DNA from: Deltaproteobacteria bacterium
GTDB taxonomy: Bacteria; Desulfobacterota; GWC2-55-46; DRQE01
Direction of reading: 5' to 3'
Assembly: GCA_015492495.1 (NCBI GenBank)
Contig: WGEY01000039.1
Span: 1 to 37,144, forward strand
DNA: 37,144 bases
Below the pieces are notes generated by a model. The model saw only the letters and a program-made list of their open reading frames with translations. It did no database searches and was not told the DNA's origin. Of this stretch, positions 11,623 to 25,518 are shown in pieces. The stretch's first letter is position 1; the number at the start of each line of letters is the position of its first letter. Position numbers and translations under genes: made by a program.

Positions 11623-11739
11623 TTCGATGCCCCCGGTGCTGTAAGGGCCTGTTCGATACCGCATTATGCGAGAGATGCCGCAGCGTACCTCCTGACGCCG
11701 CCACGGGGGAAGGAACCGACAAGCACACTGGGTCCCGTG

Positions 11740-12516
11740 ATGATACCCACCGTAAAAAAACCGAGGCTTGCGTTCTTTTCATTCACCTGCTGCGAGGGCT
11801 GCCAGCTGATGGTCCTCAACTGCGAGGACGAGTTCCCCGATCTGGTGAAGCTCGTGGACATCGTGAACTTCAGGGAGGCCATGAGCGAAAAGAGCGATGA
11901 TTACGACGTGGCCTTTGTAGAAGGCAGCATCTCCAGGCGCGAGGAGATAAAGAAACTCAAGGAGATAAGGAAGAGGGCCTCCACGGTCATCGCCCTGGGT
12001 GCGTGTTCCTCCACGGGCGGGCTGAACTGCCTCAGGAATCGCTTCCCTGTGGAAGAGGCAAAGAGGATAGTCTACGGAAAGGATGCTGCCGTCCGCAAGA
12101 TAAAGGATACCATACGTGCAAGACCGATAGACTCCATAATAGAGGTCGACCACTACATCCACGGCTGTCCCATAACGAAGGAGGAGTTCCTCTCGACCCT
12201 GAAGGCATTGCTCCTCGGCAAGGCCCCGGAGGTCCCTAACCACCCCGTGTGCGTGGACTGCAAGATGGCGGGCAACATATGCGTATTTGAAAGGGGCGCA
12301 ACATGCATGGGACCTGTAACCAGAGCAGGATGCAACGCCATATGCATTACCTACGGCAGCATCTGCTGGGGATGCCGCGGAACGGTCGATAATCCCAATA
12401 TGGATGCACACGAGGAAACCCTCAGGCGCTACGGGCTCACCGCCGACTCCGTTACGAGAAGCCTCGACCTTTACGGCGGCTGCACCGTCCGCAAGAAAAC
12501 CGGCAGGGGCGACTGA
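11740..12516 (+). CDS. [NiFe] hydrogenase small subunit (group 3-like)
   Basis: The 258-aa protein has no Tat signal peptide and is cytosolic. FFSFTCCEGCQLMVLN (CxxC at about 18-21), IALGACSSTGG and YIHGCPI supply proximal Fe-S cluster ligands. CVDCKMAGNICVF and later Cys (ATCMGPVTRAGCNAIC, CWGCRG) supply further clusters. The sequence FREAMSEKSDDYDVAFVEGSISR resembles the delta subunits of group 3b sulfhydrogenases. I use ATG 11740; the track's GTG 11737 is adjacent. The catalytic subunit follows 2 nt downstream. No NAD(P)-reducing subunits are encoded nearby, so its electron partner is unknown. Confidence 0.88.
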   Translation: MIPTVKKPRLAFFSFTCCEGCQLMVLNCEDEFPDLVKLVDIVNFREAMSEKSDDYDVAFVEGSISRREEIKKLKEIRKRASTVIALGACSSTGGLNCLRNRFPVEEAKRIVYGKDAAVRKIKDTIRARPIDSIIEVDHYIHGCPITKEEFLSTLKALLLGKAPEVPNHPVCVDCKMAGNICVFERGATCMGPVTRAGCNAICITYGSICWGCRGTVDNPNMDAHEETLRRYGLTADSVTRSLDLYGGCTVRKKTGRGD

Positions 12517-12518
12517 CC

Positions 12519-13808
12519 ATGCACAAAGACCACGACATAAACGTTCACGAGGTGACAAGGGTCGAAGGCCATGGCAACATCGTGATCAACGTAAGAAAGG
12601 GCCGCGTAGAGGAGCTCAGGCTCGAGATAATCGAGTCGCCCCGTTTCTTCGAGGCGATGCTGCGCGGGCGCCGCTATGACGAGGCCCAGCACATCATGTC
12701 GCGCATCTGCGGTATATGTGCCGTAAGCCACACATCCGCATCCGTCAAGGCCGTGGAGTCGGCAACGGGCATGAGGATATCCAAGAGGGCGAGGCTCCTC
12801 AGGGAACTCGCCTTCTGCGGGGAGACGCTCCAGAGCCACATACTGCACCTCTACTTTCTCGTGCTGCCGGACTTCTTCAGCGTGGGCTCCATAGTGCCCC
12901 TCATAAAGTCGCATCCCGAGATCGCAAGGATGGGGCTCGGGCTCAAAAAACTCGCAAACGAGATATGCAGGATCGTGGGAGGCAGGCACGTCCATCCGAT
13001 CTCCATCTTTCCCGGCGGTGTTGTGCATGTACCGAAGCCGCGGGAGCTCAAGGACCTGAAGAAGGCCCTCACCGGCTCATTTGAAAGGCTTGAGAAAACG
13101 ATCGAGCTCTTCGAGGGGTTCGAGGTCCCGGACTTCGAAGGTTCAAGGGAGTTCATCTCGCTCAGGGCCGCCAAGGGCTACCCGTTCTATGAAGGCGACC
13201 CTTTCTCGAGCATGGACGCCTCCATCGGGCAGGAGAGCTATACAAAGAGGATCAAGGAGTACACGGTTCCGCATTCCACCGCAAAACACGCAAGGACGAG
13301 CCATGGAACGTTCATGGTAGGCGCCCTTGCGAGGTTCAACAACAACCACCGAAGGCTCCACCCCAGGGCCAGGAAGGCGGCGAAACGCCTCTTGCTTAAG
13401 CCCGGCTGCTCGAATCCGTTCATGAACAACCAGGCACAGCTCGTCGAATGTATCCACCTGACCGAGGAGGCCATCTCCCTCGTCGACCGGCTGCTTGAGG
13501 TGGGCCTTGCAGCCGAAAGGCCCGCGAGGCCGCGCCGCTTCGGCAGGGGAATAGGGCTCGTAGAGGCGCCGAGGGGGACCCTGTACCACGAATACAGGAT
13601 CAACCGGGACGGCCTTATAGAAGAGGTCAACTGCATAATACCCACCGCACAGAACCTGCGGTCCATTGAAAGGGACCTCGGGGAGTTCGTGGTGACCATA
13701 CTGGACAGGCCCAGGGACGAGATAACCCGGAGTGTCGAATCGCTCGTACGCGCCTATGACCCGTGCATATCCTGCTCGACGCATATAATGGACGTGAAGT
13801 TCGTCTGA
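12519..13808 (+). CDS. [NiFe] hydrogenase large (catalytic) subunit
   Basis: The 429-aa protein carries both nickel-binding motifs: RICGIC at about 62-67 and DPCISCSTH at about 414-422. Four Cys (about 64, 67, 416, 419) hold the NiFe centre, and none is replaced by Sec. Only a 7-residue tail (IMDVKFV) follows His422, the usual site where a maturation protease cuts. VTRVEGHGNIVI near the N-terminus is also typical. It oxidises or evolves H2 in the cytosol with the small subunit. Group 3b enzymes normally come with two diaphorase subunits, which are missing here, and no hyp or protease gene is visible. A sensory or alternative-partner role is possible but inferred. Confidence 0.93.
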   Translation: MHKDHDINVHEVTRVEGHGNIVINVRKGRVEELRLEIIESPRFFEAMLRGRRYDEAQHIMSRICGICAVSHTSASVKAVESATGMRISKRARLLRELAFCGETLQSHILHLYFLVLPDFFSVGSIVPLIKSHPEIARMGLGLKKLANEICRIVGGRHVHPISIFPGGVVHVPKPRELKDLKKALTGSFERLEKTIELFEGFEVPDFEGSREFISLRAAKGYPFYEGDPFSSMDASIGQESYTKRIKEYTVPHSTAKHARTSHGTFMVGALARFNNNHRRLHPRARKAAKRLLLKPGCSNPFMNNQAQLVECIHLTEEAISLVDRLLEVGLAAERPARPRRFGRGIGLVEAPRGTLYHEYRINRDGLIEEVNCIIPTAQNLRSIERDLGEFVVTILDRPRDEITRSVESLVRAYDPCISCSTHIMDVKFV

Positions 13809-17965: not shown

Positions 17966-18712
17966 CTAGTGAAGCGCAAACACAACAGGCACGATAAATT
18001 CAAGCTCCTTCTGCGAAACGGTCTCAGGCACAGGCGGAAAGGGGTTTGCGCGGCGCGCCATGGCAAGAGCCGCCTGGTCAAGCAGCCTGTTGCCCGTGCG
18101 CTTTTCCAGGGCCACATGCCGTATGCGTCCGGTACGGTCGATAATGATCCGCAACATCCCCTCTCCTTCGATACGCAGACGTTGGGCGCTGCGCGGATAT
18201 ATCTTGTGCCTCTCCAGCCAGCTCCTGAACAGGTCTCCGTACCTTGCTACGTCTTCGTCATCCCGGGGAGCCGTATCCGCCTCTGCCGCCGGCGACGGCA
18301 ACGCTGCCTCCCGGTCGACTGTCTCAACAGGCTCTGAGACGTGTCTGGCAATCGGTTGTGGTTCAACCTCGGCAGGCGCCGCCATCACTGGCGGCTCTGG
18401 TTCTGCTGTCGCATCTTGAACAACGGGCCTTGAAACCGGCTCAGGCTCCTCAGAAACTGTCTGCTGTCTCGGCAACGGCGCCGGATCCGGCATAGGTTCG
18501 GGTTGCTGGGTAGGCTCACTATGCAACGGCTCTGCCGAAGTGGGCTCAGCAGTTTGATCTATGGTAGACAGCAGACTCACACGAAGAGATTGTGGCAGCT
18601 GTCTTGTCAGTGGCGCATGAACAGACATACCAAGCCACATAGCTATACCGCCATGGAGCGCCAGGGCTATGAGCACCATTATGGTCATCTGTAGCCTTGT
18701 GATCGGCATCAT
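17966..18712 (-). CDS. tonB: TonB-family energy transducer
   Basis: The 248-aa protein has an N-terminal membrane anchor (MTIMVLIALALHGGIAMWLGM), where the first helix carries the Ser/His-type face needed for ExbB/D contact. A long Pro/Glu-rich periplasmic linker (about 50-150) follows. The C-terminal domain contains YPRSAQRLRIEGEGMLRIII, LEKRTGNRLLDQAALAMARRANPFPP, typical of TonB. It transmits proton-motive-force energy from ExbBD to the outer-membrane receptor. It overlaps exbD by 4 nt and is the last gene of the cassette. Confidence 0.9.
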   Translation of the reverse strand: MMPITRLQMTIMVLIALALHGGIAMWLGMSVHAPLTRQLPQSLRVSLLSTIDQTAEPTSAEPLHSEPTQQPEPMPDPAPLPRQQTVSEEPEPVSRPVVQDATAEPEPPVMAAPAEVEPQPIARHVSEPVETVDREAALPSPAAEADTAPRDDEDVARYGDLFRSWLERHKIYPRSAQRLRIEGEGMLRIIIDRTGRIRHVALEKRTGNRLLDQAALAMARRANPFPPVPETVSQKELEFIVPVVFALH

Positions 18713-19113
18713 TGGCGCCTCTGCGTAGTCGCCAGGGCGATATTTTTGCCTCCGGCGGCACGGATTTCATCCATGACCCTTAGCAACTGCTGCACCTCGG
18801 TACGCGCGTCACTTTTAAGGGTAATGGCTGTATTTGCATCTTCTCTCAACAATGGCTCAATCGCCATACGCAGCTCGTCAAGCTCAATGAGCTCGCCGTT
18901 GAGCGTAAGCCGCCCCCTTTGATCGAGCGATACGGTTATGGGCGTGGCTTCGCTCGCGCTTGCGCTGCTTGATTCTGGAAGATCAAGCTCTATAGCTTCC
19001 GGCACAAGAAATGTGCTGGTGAGCATGAAAAAAACCAGGAGCAGGAACACTATATCTATAAGCGGCGCTATATCGAGATGCGCATGTATACGGGAGCGGC
19101 CTTCAAACTCCAT
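18709..19113 (-). CDS. exbD: ExbD/TolR-type biopolymer transport protein
   Basis: The 134-aa protein shows the family pattern. A short cytosolic start precedes IDIVFLLLVFFMLTSTF, whose DIVFLLLVFFM holds the conserved helix Asp that conducts protons. PEAIELDLPES follows, then a small periplasmic domain with VSLDQRGRLTLNGE. It forms the inner-membrane motor with ExbB and TonB. It overlaps exbB upstream by 11 nt and tonB downstream by 4 nt. Confidence 0.92.
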   Translation of the reverse strand: MEFEGRSRIHAHLDIAPLIDIVFLLLVFFMLTSTFLVPEAIELDLPESSSASASEATPITVSLDQRGRLTLNGELIELDELRMAIEPLLREDANTAITLKSDARTEVQQLLRVMDEIRAAGGKNIALATTQRRQ

Positions 19114-19771
19114 GGGTATCGTCCTCCACTACTCTCTCGCCGCTCCCTACACTGGAAGGGCTTTTACCGAAGTGCAGCAGGATCCTCACGGTTGCATCCT
19201 TCATGGCAGCACGCACATTATCAACTTCGCCCTCCAGGTAATAAAAGGCCGCCATGGATGGAATTGCCACTGTCAGCCCGAAGGCCGTGGTCAAGAGGGC
19301 TTCCCATATGCCGCCTGACAGTATGGAGGGATCTACCCGGCTACCAGCCTCTTCAAGGCGCATGAATGCAGCGATCATCCCGGTCACAGTGCCTAACAGC
19401 CCCAGCAGCGGGCTCAGATGGGCAATGGCGGAAAGCCCCCTCAGCCAGGACTCAAGGTTGCGTATCTGAGCAGACCCGACACGGCTCACCTCAGCCTCGA
19501 CATCCTTCGCAGTCATCCGCTGATCCGCGCCACAGCGTACGGCGCTCTCCATAACTCGAGCTATCGGATTACGCTGCCGATCCAACTCCTTCAACGCTTC
19601 GTCCTTCCGCCCACTATACAACGCCGATATTGCGGACTCCACGAACTCCAGCCGGCGTAAACCGCTGCGGTAGAACTGAAACAGCTTTGCAAGAATAATG
19701 GCAACCGCCAGTACGGACAAGACCAACAGCACCATCATCAGCGGTCCGCCCTGTTTGAGCAAGCTCAGCAT
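19103..19771 (-). CDS. exbB: ExbB/TolQ/MotA-type proton channel
   Basis: From ATG 19771 the 222-aa protein begins MLSLLKQGGPLMMVLLVLSVLAVAIILAKLFQFYR, the first membrane helix. Later helices contain WLRGLSAIAHLSPLLGLLGTVTGMIAAF and GGIWEALLTTAFGLTVAIPSM, the strongly conserved ExbB/TolQ signature. The track starts at 19876, but the extra N-terminus is not family-like. The ribosome site for 19771 is weak (AGGA close to the ATG), and GTG 19786 (VKEQD...) is an alternative. It lies 117 nt downstream of the receptor gene. Confidence 0.9.
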   Translation of the reverse strand: MLSLLKQGGPLMMVLLVLSVLAVAIILAKLFQFYRSGLRRLEFVESAISALYSGRKDEALKELDRQRNPIARVMESAVRCGADQRMTAKDVEAEVSRVGSAQIRNLESWLRGLSAIAHLSPLLGLLGTVTGMIAAFMRLEEAGSRVDPSILSGGIWEALLTTAFGLTVAIPSMAAFYYLEGEVDNVRAAMKDATVRILLHFGKSPSSVGSGERVVEDDTHGV

Positions 19772-19888
19772 ATCCTGTTCTTTCACTCCCTTAGACACCC
19801 TATGGACGGCACGGACGGCGGCGACCCGTATGCGGAAGGTGCTTCCGCGCAACCCGCCGCCGTACCACCACCCCATAAAGGGTCCCTA

Positions 19889-22153
19889 TCACATCGCTAT
19901 CTCGATACCTGCATAGAGAAACCGCGGCATGCCCGGGCGCGGCCCGTGTGGCTGTCGCGACACTATATACTCCTTATCAAAGAGGTTCTGCACCCCGCCG
20001 AAGAGCTTCACCGTATCCGTAATCCGGTAGAAGGCCGAAATATCGGCCACGAAGTAGCTGTCGGTCTTGCCGAAACGGGCATCCGGGGCACCGTTACCAT
20101 TCACCTGATTATCCACATTGTTGGCGCTGGTGTAGGTATCACTCGTATAGTTGCCGGAGATGTAAGCCCCCCACAGGTCGGACTCGATCCCGGTGCCTAG
20201 GCTCAACTGCAACTCCGGTATGTAGGGGACCTTATTGCCCTTTTTACCGAAGCTGAAAATAGACTCGGCATCAGTGGATCTGGCGTCGTTACGCTGTTCG
20301 GCGTTTGTATAGGTCATGCTCACGAACCACGGGTTGCGCACCCCCCATCCGTTGGCAATACCTGCGTCGTACTGGGCGGTAAGCTCAACCCCGTAAGCAG
20401 TCGCCTCGCCGAAGTTTTCATCATCGCCACTGCCTGCACCGCCGATATTATCAACCACGATCAGGTCCTTGAAGTCCGTATAAAACAGGACCGCCTCTGC
20501 GGCAAAAGCCTGGTTACGATTGGCGTAACGGGCACCGACCTCGAATGCCGTGCTGGTCTCTTCCTCGAGATTCTTGGTAACCGCACCCTTGGGGCTGGGT
20601 GGTGAAAACCCGCGGTGCACACCACCGAAGCCGGTAAGGGAGTCACTGAACCTGTATGCCACACCCAGACCGCCTGCGGTCATGTTCATGGAGTTGTCAC
20701 CCCTGGATGTGCCCTTTGGGCTCTCGTAGGTCTGGTCCAGCACCTCATAGCGAACGCCCGGCGTCAACGTCCAACGGCCGATCTTTACGGTGTCCTGAAC
20801 AAACAAGGCCAGAGCCTTTGTCCTCTGCAGCCGGTCACCGGCGCCGCCCGGGGTGCCAGCCGTCATTCCGGAAATAGTGCCGTTGGCCGCTTGGGTGTAA
20901 TCGTCATCCCACTGGAAGCGACGCACCTCGTCCTTATGAGAGCGTATGCCCGATGAAATCTCGTGCTGGACCTCGTCCGAGCCGAAGCGGAAGTATGTAA
21001 CGGCCTCGACCCCCTCTGCGCTGTACTCACGATTGTTGGCACGCACACGGAGGGTGCACTCCATCAACCCCTTCAGGCAATTCAGCCCCTCACCGTTCTG
21101 TGCACCAGCCAAGGCAGCGGACAGTCCTATGGTGTTGCCGTTTACGTTGCGCAGGTCTTTGAGCTTGTACCAGTTGCGCTTGAATTCGGTCGAGTAAAAC
21201 GTCATAATGACGTCAAGGTTATCAGTGGGGCTTACGGCGTAACGCAGGTAGCTGTTATTTTGCTCTGCGTCTATGTTGTCGAAACGCGACGCCGAGTAAC
21301 GACGCAGCGGATCGGCTTTGAAGTCAGCCTCGCTAAGCCCCAGGTACGTCTCGTTGGCATCAATCTCGTTGCTGCCGTACTTCAGCTCAAACCGCTGGTA
21401 AATAGCTGTGTTCGGCTCCCAGGCAATCTTGAACATCACGTCCCTCTTGTTGAAGCCGGTATCATCACCCGATCGGAAGTCGGCGGTTTCATCGATGGAT
21501 TTGAAACCCTCGTTCTGGCGGAAATAGCCTTCGGCAAGCAAGCCGAAGCGGCCGGCCTTTGTGTCGAAGGTGGAGCCTGCATACGCATGGGTGCGCAACT
21601 CATCGAAGCTGCCAAACGACGACTTGAGGTATGCGGTCTTCTTAAGCGGAATCGGCGTTGAAAGGTAGTTGATAACACCACCGGTGGTGTGAGGGCCGTA
21701 CTTGATCTGGCTAGAGCCCATAAGCACCTCCAGTCCGCTCATGCGCCCGACGGTGGGCACATAGTAGGCGGCGGGCGCAGAATACGGCGCGGGCGCCATC
21801 AACACACCATCCTCCATGATGGTAACCTTGGCGCTGCGGGTGGTGTCCACACCCCTCAGGCTTATGCTCGGAAAAAGCCCAAAGCCAAACTCCCCCCTTG
21901 CATAGACCCCGGGCACCTTCTGCAGCACACGGCTCACGTCATCATAATTCTGCTGACGTATCTCTTCATCGGTTACGACATAGGCGGCACCAGGGACCTT
22001 TTCGAGATCAGCCGGATTGCCGACCACCATTACCTTTTCAAGAATGCTGCCCCCCGAATCCTTGCCCTCGTCACCCTCATCGGCCCTGCCCGACTGGGCA
22101 AGCGCAAGGACCAACACCGCACCAAGAAGTAGCGTCAAGAACCTTCTCATCAT
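19889..22153 (-). CDS. TonB-dependent outer-membrane receptor (FecA-like)
   Basis: The 754-aa protein has a signal peptide (MMRRFLTLLLGAVLVLALAQSGRA). A TonB box-like start (ILEKVMVVGNP) is followed by the plug domain with VLQKVPGVYARGEFGFGLFPSISLRGVD and YGPHTTGGVINYLS. A 22-strand barrel fills the rest, ending with GGVQNLFDKEYIVSRQPHGPRPGMPRFLYAGIEIAM. The plug most resembles FecA-type ferric-citrate receptors; substrate cannot be proven. GGGAGG precedes the ATG pair. It is read with exbB, exbD and tonB, a self-contained uptake system. Arg and Leu codons look less AGG/CTC-biased than in neighbouring genes, suggesting transfer. Confidence 0.92.
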   Translation of the reverse strand: MMRRFLTLLLGAVLVLALAQSGRADEGDEGKDSGGSILEKVMVVGNPADLEKVPGAAYVVTDEEIRQQNYDDVSRVLQKVPGVYARGEFGFGLFPSISLRGVDTTRSAKVTIMEDGVLMAPAPYSAPAAYYVPTVGRMSGLEVLMGSSQIKYGPHTTGGVINYLSTPIPLKKTAYLKSSFGSFDELRTHAYAGSTFDTKAGRFGLLAEGYFRQNEGFKSIDETADFRSGDDTGFNKRDVMFKIAWEPNTAIYQRFELKYGSNEIDANETYLGLSEADFKADPLRRYSASRFDNIDAEQNNSYLRYAVSPTDNLDVIMTFYSTEFKRNWYKLKDLRNVNGNTIGLSAALAGAQNGEGLNCLKGLMECTLRVRANNREYSAEGVEAVTYFRFGSDEVQHEISSGIRSHKDEVRRFQWDDDYTQAANGTISGMTAGTPGGAGDRLQRTKALALFVQDTVKIGRWTLTPGVRYEVLDQTYESPKGTSRGDNSMNMTAGGLGVAYRFSDSLTGFGGVHRGFSPPSPKGAVTKNLEEETSTAFEVGARYANRNQAFAAEAVLFYTDFKDLIVVDNIGGAGSGDDENFGEATAYGVELTAQYDAGIANGWGVRNPWFVSMTYTNAEQRNDARSTDAESIFSFGKKGNKVPYIPELQLSLGTGIESDLWGAYISGNYTSDTYTSANNVDNQVNGNGAPDARFGKTDSYFVADISAFYRITDTVKLFGGVQNLFDKEYIVSRQPHGPRPGMPRFLYAGIEIAM

Positions 22154-22264
22154 GAAACCTCCCTTGTCACTGATCGGGCCTCTCGGGTCTCTTCAAGTTA
22201 ATCGGTCCTCGAAGAACTCTTACTAAACAAAACATATCGACCACTGTCAGCAGCACGCCGGCTC

Positions 22265-22405
22265 CTAACCACGAAGCGACTTCAAAACCTGTATGTATCC
22301 ACACTTGGGACACTTGATCTCAACCACCAGAACCTCCCCCTTCATAAGGAGCCTCTTGCATCGTTTGCAGCGTATGTCCTTTTCAAACACCTTTTCTTCA
22401 AACAC
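22265..22405 (-). CDS. Com-like zinc-finger protein, 46 aa
   Basis: This small ORF is not in the track. It encodes about 46 residues with IRCKRCKRLLMKG and IKCPKCGYIQVLKS, the CxxC...CxxC pattern of the Com family (phage Mu translational activator of mom). Homologues are often annotated as small regulators. GTG 22405 is the likely start, with GGAAG upstream; GTG 22411 and GTG 22390 are alternatives. It is the first gene behind the palindrome-overlapped promoter, 111 nt upstream of the TonB receptor gene. It may bind nucleic acid to control the receptor, which is inference. Confidence 0.75.
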   Translation of the reverse strand: MFEEKVFEKDIRCKRCKRLLMKGEVLVVEIKCPKCGYIQVLKSLRG

Positions 22406-22437
22406 CTTCACTTCCAGCAATCCGGACAATGAAATTG

Positions 22438-22455
22438 AAAATCGAATTCGATTTT
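22438..22455. promoter_or_regulatory. 18-bp perfect palindromic operator candidate
   Basis: AAAATCGAATTCGATTTT is a perfect 18-bp palindrome. It covers the -10 box and predicted start of the minus-strand promoter for the com-TonB operon, a classic repressor position. Its A/T-rich arms around a central GAATTC resemble iron-regulator (Fur-type) sites only loosely. Given the gene content, an iron-responsive repressor is a reasonable guess. Confidence 0.65.
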
Positions 22456-22480
22456 ACAGAAAGACAAGGCAGTTTGTCAA
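22451..22480 (-). promoter_or_regulatory. Sigma70-type promoter of the com-TonB receptor operon
   Basis: On the minus strand TTGACA (22480-22475) and TAAAAT (22456-22451) are separated by 18 nt. The predicted start is about 40 nt before the Com-like GTG. The -10 overlaps the 18-bp palindrome. Confidence 0.7.
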
Positions 22481-24993: not shown

Positions 24994-25021
24994 GGAGGAC
25001 TTCTACCGTCAGAAGTCCTCC
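24994..25021. repeat. 11-bp perfect hairpin overlapping the LysW-like stop codon
   Basis: GGAGGACTTCT (24994-25004) and AGAAGTCCTCC (25011-25021) are exact complements around a 6-nt loop. The 25011-25021 arm (first on the minus strand) includes the last codons and the start of the stop codon of the small zinc-ribbon gene. It lacks a T-tract, so it may protect the mRNA 3' end or block ribosomes instead of being a standard terminator. Confidence 0.65.
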
Positions 25022-25179
25022 TGAAGGTAGAGCTCGTCGTCCTTCGTCTGTTTCAGCTTGAGTGGTGTTTCACAGTACGGGCAGTATATCTCGTCGCCGA
25101 CCTTCTCGTCTCCCGAAAGCGCTATCTCGCAATCGCACATCGGACAGTCGATGTACTCCGTTGCCCCTTTTCTTTTCAT
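25009..25179 (-). CDS. LysW-like zinc-ribbon protein, 56 aa
   Basis: This ORF is too short for the track. ATG 25179 starts MKRKGATEYIDCPMCDCEIALSG, followed by GDEIYCPYCETPLKLKQ, a CPxC...CPxC zinc ribbon like that of LysW and related carriers. The acidic C-terminus (KDDELYLQEDF) lacks the EDWGE end used by true LysW as an amino-acid carrier, so lysine or arginine biosynthesis is not supported. It begins 3 nt after the EF-Tu-like gene and shares its promoter. The function is unknown. Confidence 0.75.
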   Translation of the reverse strand: MKRKGATEYIDCPMCDCEIALSGDEKVGDEIYCPYCETPLKLKQTKDDELYLQEDF

Positions 25180-25182
25180 TTC

Positions 25183-25440
25183 TTATTCCTCTATGACCTT
25201 GAATACGATGTCGTGGTGCCTGCCGTGCTCTTTGACCTTCAACCCGATGCCTTCCCCACTTTTGGCGCTCTCCACCTTCCTGTGGTTTACCTCTATGCTC
25301 TCGACCTTCTGCAGGAAGTCGGATGTATGCCCCTTGACGTGTATTGTATCGCCGACCTTCAGGTCGTTTTCAAGGGTGAGTGTCACCACACCGAGATTGG
25401 TGTAATAATGATCTACAACACCTACCTTCTCCTCTCTCAT
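25183..25440 (-). CDS. EF-Tu domain-2-like small protein, 85 aa
   Basis: From ATG 25440, preceded by AAGGAGGGGG, the 85-aa product is a single beta-barrel. It resembles domain 2 of translation GTPases: VGVVDHYYTNLGVVTLTL, DLKVGDTIHVKGHT and VKEHGRHHDIVFKV. The track start at 25497 precedes the ribosome site. Stand-alone domain-2-like proteins are conserved in many archaea and bacteria without a known role; RNA or ribosome contact is inference. It is co-transcribed with the zinc-ribbon gene. Confidence 0.8.
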   Translation of the reverse strand: MREEKVGVVDHYYTNLGVVTLTLENDLKVGDTIHVKGHTSDFLQKVESIEVNHRKVESAKSGEGIGLKVKEHGRHHDIVFKVIEE

Positions 25441-25489
25441 AACCCCCTCCTTTTTGTTCAAGGAAAAAGGATACACCCGATCGATCTTA

Positions 25490-25518
25490 ATTATCATGCG
25501 CAGGGCCTATCTTGTCAA
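25490..25518 (-). promoter_or_regulatory. Sigma70 promoter for the EF-Tu-like/zinc-ribbon pair
   Basis: On the minus strand TTGACA (25518-25513) and GATAAT (25495-25490) are 17 nt apart. The predicted leader is about 40-50 nt before ATG 25440. Confidence 0.75.

Follow-up and report, generated by a model that had tools for sequence, protein, structure and literature searches.

The window, by which we mean the whole 37,144-nucleotide stretch of DNA that was analysed, carries on its reverse strand an ORF (22265–22429) that belongs to the Com family of zinc ribbons (PF10122, Zn_ribbon_Com; 41.4 bits, E = 9.5e-11, against a curated cut-off of 22.9). Counted from a TTG, the ORF has 54 codons; the 46-aa Com-like protein of the initial annotation corresponds to a start at an internal GTG near 22405, and its family assignment holds. 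The four cysteines of the protein are arranged as two CxxC pairs (IRCKRC...IKCPKC) that are invariant when aligned with Mu Com, for which the query was the 62-aa protein identical to the deposited record. A profile search across the 2.26-Mb genome returned this gene as the single PF10122 match above the cut-off.

Downstream of com on the same strand, Pfam models identified a TonB-dependent receptor of 754 aa (19889–22153; PF00593 barrel and PF07715 plug), exbB (19103–19876; PF01618), exbD (18709–19113; PF02472), and tonB (17966–18712; PF03544 and TIGR01352). A Shine-Dalgarno sequence, GGGAGG, was read from the sequence in front of the receptor (22158–22163, reverse strand). The gene set of the com-led operon proposed earlier is therefore confirmed by Pfam, and the description of the receptor as FecA-like applies only at the superfamily level, with 140 bits against the FecA model and a cut-off of 1100. 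All NCBIfam substrate equivalogs searched for the receptor (FecA, siderophore, heme) scored under their cut-offs; the TonB-siderophore model came out on top, above FecA, with 178 bits against its cut-off of 223.5. The neighbors of com examined by profile search are the TonB operon and genes for archease, RtcB, and HSP20, rather than those of a Mu-like prophage. Two further features of the window were observed. At 25009–25497 (reverse strand), a 56-aa CxxC protein adjoins a 104-aa protein that weakly resembles U32-C or EF-Tu domain 2; these similarities are all under Pfam cut-offs, and the locus represents a second small zinc-ribbon-like gene, not Com. At 11737–13808 (forward strand), the starts of two ORFs resemble, by eye, the small and large subunits of NiFe hydrogenase.

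A sigma70-like promoter (TTGACA-18-TAAAAT; 22451–22480, reverse strand) matches 11 of 12 consensus bases; the same search found 2 sites in 1 kb vs 0.6 in shuffles. Its -10 element is overlapped by a perfect 18-bp palindrome, AAAATCGAATTCGATTTT, located by exact match at 22438–22455. Both features had been described in the initial annotation and were borne out. The palindrome is the only perfect one of at least 18 bp in the window, where the chance expectation is ~0.1 per window and ~3 in 10,000 per 200-nt promoter stretch. Its proposed role as a conserved control element did not survive: a motif search found one copy in the genome, with the next-best sites 3 mismatches away, it was absent from the orthologous com promoter of a member of another genus in the same family (G001), and it agrees with the Fur consensus at only 11–12 of 19 positions. 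We therefore rejected the palindrome as a conserved operator.

The best Fur match at the window promoter (13/19, P = 0.01) adjoins the palindrome, and the genome carries two Fur-family genes. At Com promoters elsewhere, Fur-like boxes reach 18–19/19 in Sporomusaceae, 16/19 in G001 and L016, and 15/19 in L024; weaker boxes of 14/19 are found in L014, L015, and L021. Because these relatives have Fur-like boxes but the window promoter reaches only 13/19, a Fur-type transcriptional layer is likely at Com loci in general and only suggested here.

Com boxes and their association with Com genes

Two RNA hairpins lie in the 111 nt that separate com from the start of the receptor gene, outside the interval covered by the initial annotation (22265–22480). 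In phage Mu, Com is a translational activator of mom, with a SELEX-derived target of NGAGNNCC(N)2-3GAGNNCCNN and a native mom site of GAAUGCCUGCGAGCAUCCC, and a GA dinucleotide is protected by Com in SHAPE probing (PMC6483171). The second window hairpin, box 2 (GAGACCC-GA-GAGGCCC; 22176–22191, reverse strand), is an exact match to the SELEX motif and has one A-C mismatch in its four-base stem. Box 1 (GA-GUUC-UUCGA-GGAC-C; 22204–22219, reverse strand), identified in the box scan, sits 28 nt upstream of box 2 and within a covariance-model match at 22174–22220 (48.9 bits, with the window itself in the model seed). Both boxes are located 22–66 nt upstream of the receptor start codon. One hairpin pattern is common to the SELEX motif, the mom site, and both window sites: GA, a four-base stem, a loop (mostly 5–6 bases) ending in GA, the complementary stem, and C. 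We refer to this pattern as the Com box. When 2.2 kb of the Mu com-mom region was scanned, the known site was the only match. The window hairpins are thus predicted to be bound by Com as its RNA target near a regulated start.

The boxes do not correspond to a family cataloged in Rfam. Rfam 15 covariance models gave no match at the boxes of seven loci at the gathering score, nor any box match up to E = 1 in the window between 21900 and 22600, and a known Rfam element was rejected as their identity on these grounds. Com box loops, mostly of five bases and ending in GA, also differ from the hexanucleotide loop with A1 and G4 of ANTAR target RNAs. As a separate observation, a Nitrospirae contig (L019:6848–7187, reverse strand) contains a match to the cspA thermoregulator (RF01766, 86 bits).

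To relate the box to Com statistically, we scanned ~55 Com loci gathered by protein similarity, not all of them independent, for the skeleton GA-N4-N3GA-N4-C without a pairing requirement and then counted full pairing. All four pairs could form in 38 of the 66 skeletons close to the com end, whereas in the remainder of the same loci full pairing was seen in 35 of 1,052 skeletons on the sense strand and 20 of 902 on the antisense strand. Next to com, fully paired boxes numbered 38 in sense and 0 in antisense orientation, with ~1 expected. Since the pattern had first been recognized on some of these loci, we repeated the test on 80 previously uninspected viral Com loci, which formed 32 clusters, using loops of five and six bases. 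A box was present in 25 of the 32 clusters, and 35 fully paired boxes were counted against 1.14 expected (P ~3e-39). RNAalifold, applied unaided to the tandem alignment, recovered the same two hairpins, with compensatory changes at seven of eight pairs. An alignment of 41 sequences shows no variation at the GA, GA, and C positions, but its rows had been picked for their fit to the box; we therefore base the case on the tandem and enrichment tests only. Collectively, these tests link the Com box tightly to Com genes across phyla and phages.

We then ran a covariance model of the tandem boxes, with the window boxes in its seed, on 59 relatives, seven of which have a Com gene. The five best matches all fall in Com-bearing genomes, the window at 48.9 bits (in seed) and the others at 24.7–31.3. 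Each of the seven Com genomes scored at least 22.8 bits and the Com-less genomes at most 23.6; as these values overlap, the weakest two Com genomes are not set apart from noise by score alone. We took the weak matches in Com-less relatives as noise, one being within a coding frame (L125) and another having no nearby sense-strand box (L126). No other strong Com site was found in the window's own genome, where the remaining model matches are at most 17.6 bits. The linear pattern GAGNNCC(N)2-3GAGNNCC alone was rejected as a genome-wide predictor, with 64 matches in this genome vs 67 for the reversed pattern. A run of the model on twelve genomes that carry further Com loci yielded a new site in Nitrospira sp. 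(L145, G440), consisting of tandem boxes with a previously missed second com paralog in front and a TonB receptor behind. This locus was found only through the RNA model.

Com loci in other genomes

The genes and boxes of the window are conserved together in G001, which has com, boxes, receptor, ExbB, ExbD, and TonB; its receptor is 77% identical to that of the window, and its box stems differ. Chromosomal Com genes accompany a TonB receptor and all or some of ExbB, ExbD, and TonB in the window, G001, L020, L027, and L029, and a TonB receptor in L145. HutW/ChuW, a radical SAM enzyme of anaerobic heme degradation, scored above its cut-off at five Com loci (L023, L027, L029, L033, and L036). Other com genes are accompanied by FecB, FecCD, and a receptor (L023), by FeoAB (L026), or by Fur, DUF2325, an outer-membrane protein, and FTR1 (L022/L025, each gene tested in one or the other locus). 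The linkage of com to receptors expected from the initial annotation is therefore found elsewhere, with Com repeatedly located at TonB receptors and at other iron or heme uptake genes. Iron genes are not present at every Com locus: in L121 (G051), a tandem box with a terminator lies ahead of a pilin-like gene. This box-terminator is ~12 kb from com and is apparently a Com target acting at a distance.

Many Com genes are prophage-borne, including some on Mu-like prophages. In the Mu-like prophages L040, L031, L038, L068, and L043, the Com box overlaps a terminator. The genes that follow com in L040 and L031 encode an endolysin or amidase and a terminase, with a portal also in L040. Given these lysis and packaging genes behind box-terminators, Com may be a late-gene antiterminator in phages of this type. 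A SIR2-domain gene is located between com and the boxes in L031.

The box is common to two designs. In the translational one, the region of the boxes is predicted to pair with the Shine-Dalgarno sequence or the start. In the terminator design, the 3′ arm of the last box doubles as the 5′ arm of an intrinsic terminator; thirteen loci from the first set and five of the viral loci have this arrangement, with a viral control of 17 in 480 random positions. Termination should be prevented when Com keeps such a box closed. Four Sporomusaceae (L033, L034, L036, and L037) have a Com protein fused to a FecB/IsdE-like binding domain, and no hydrophobic stretch that would indicate a signal peptide or membrane segment was found in the fusion. 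The com-fecB leader combines Fur box, Com box, and terminator. Some 6.4 kb further along, another leader, of Com box plus terminator, precedes the gene of a stand-alone binding protein whose N-terminus is hydrophobic. The fusion looks like a one-protein ligand-sensing antiterminator. Its ligand may be heme, as suggested solely by the similarity and by the neighboring HutW.

Proposed control of the window operon

We propose, with a probability of roughly three in four, that a chromosomal RNA-binding protein of the Com family, together with its RNA target, controls the window operon, with Com activating translation of the receptor as it does that of mom. Com would be made from the first cistron of the operon and would bind the tandem boxes 22–66 nt upstream of the receptor start codon. 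Bound Com would keep the boxes in hairpin form, freeing the receptor start region for ribosomes like Com on mom, and the promoter would add control of transcription, which probably responds to iron through a Fur-type regulator, as it does in relatives. What the sequence itself shows is a Com gene, a tandem box, and a close statistical tie between box and Com across phyla and phages; we infer that Com binds in this organism, that it activates rather than represses, and that it depends on metal.

Folding predictions are partly consistent with start-site release. In the predicted fold of the window, the receptor start region is partly paired with the box region, and the unpaired probability of the start codon rises from 0.45 when folding is free to 0.79 with the boxes formed, the Shine-Dalgarno sequence itself being unchanged. 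Box formation is predicted to free the start codon or Shine-Dalgarno sequence in the window, L020, L027, L146, and L024, and the effect is not clear in L022, L025, L145, and G001; clear predicted release is thus limited to roughly one in two loci of the translational type. Complementarity of the arm GCCUCCUGA to UCAGGAGGC was seen in phage UMP151. Most duplexes between arm and Shine-Dalgarno sequence, that of the window included (P = 0.35), do not exceed in strength the duplexes formed by shuffled arms.

Com could instead act on the window operon through antitermination or mRNA stability, a reading supported by the loci of the first and viral sets in which the last box shares an arm with a terminator. 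However, the boxes of the window and of G001 are free of any overlapping terminator; in G001 the terminator scan flagged only a weak, T-poor structure in the start region. We consider this reading unlikely, and because no terminator overlaps the window boxes, a mom-like translational design is favored for the window from folding and by analogy with Mu.

It is highly improbable that Com regulates transcription by binding DNA at the palindrome. NCBI names the family "Com family DNA-binding transcriptional regulator," and the palindrome adjoins com in the window, but the element that goes with Com is confined to one strand (38 sense vs 0 antisense next to com), lies downstream of com inside the transcript, keeps its pairing through compensatory change, and equals the RNA site bound in vitro (PMC6483171), and the palindrome was not seen at the Com promoter of G001. 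We give equally little credence to the idea that only the palindrome or promoter matters and that com and its boxes are a decaying phage remnant: Com is short and patchy (7 of 59 relatives) and is often found on prophages, but G001 keeps com, divergent boxes, and operon together, the identified window neighbors are chromosomal housekeeping or uptake genes, and the design is common to distant lineages.

The translational reading bears on the two-tier control of metal uptake suggested in the initial annotation. This idea is largely supported by the Com-target match before the receptor and by the Fur boxes of relatives, without the palindrome as a conserved element. Because the match lies exactly where post-transcriptional control needs it, two-tier control of the window operon is credible.

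More broadly, we regard it as rather probable that Com is the founder of a widespread class of protein-dependent RNA switches, in which one hairpin code has two alternative uses, translational switching (mom, TonB receptors) and antitermination (Mu-like prophage late genes, heme operons). Genes for iron and heme uptake that lie behind Fur boxes would have recruited this class, and the Sporomusaceae fusion to a cytosolic heme-type domain would be a one-component ligand-sensing antiterminator. The protein-plus-hairpin pair occurs both at genes for iron and heme uptake and in phages of several phyla, which suggests that this way of switching genes on is widespread and has largely been overlooked. 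Research on Com has so far treated it as the private regulator of a single phage gene. If true, iron and heme uptake would be subject to RNA-level control beside Fur, and small proteins that annotators tend to skip would acquire a function. Because the Com RNA code is readable from sequence across phyla, its targets become predictable, as with the new Nitrospira match, and the long-open question of what many Com-like genes do becomes testable through simple hairpin mutants.

Relation to known systems

Our searches of open-access papers turned up no account of a family-wide Com RNA element, of Com antitermination, or of Com at iron genes; subscription papers lay outside these searches, and the novelty is therefore provisional. 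No solved Com structure was clearly found. ANTAR antiterminators such as EutV act on two small tandem hairpins to exclude a terminator, with sites of 3-bp stems and hexanucleotide loops carrying A1 and G4 (PMC3369931). Com boxes resemble them as tandem small hairpins that would be bound by a protein and, in the terminator design, set against a terminator. In contrast, Com boxes have 4-bp stems and loops ending in GA, the protein domain is different, and the design in the window has no terminator. The Sporomusaceae Com-FecB fusion resembles NasS-NasT, in which a cytoplasmic homolog of a substrate-binding protein is the sensor for an RNA-binding regulator (PMC3795266). NasS and NasT, however, are two separate proteins with a nitrate/nitrite signal and ANTAR-type RNA binding, and the window has no such feature.

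In Pseudomonas, com-like genes precede lectin-like bacteriocins and levansucrases, and their role was left open by the authors (PMC6240691). As in the window, a com-like gene lies directly before its target and outside mom, but the targets are different and an RNA site was not described there. The closest counterpart is com-mom of phage Mu (PMC6483171). The window differs in being chromosomal, in serving a TonB receptor operon, and in having tandem boxes, whereas Mu has one box within the end of com and a DNA-modification target. Both systems encode a Com-family zinc finger just upstream of the target and have a GA-stem-loop-GA-stem′-C hairpin near the target start, and the activating role of Mu Com is the one that we propose for Com of the window.
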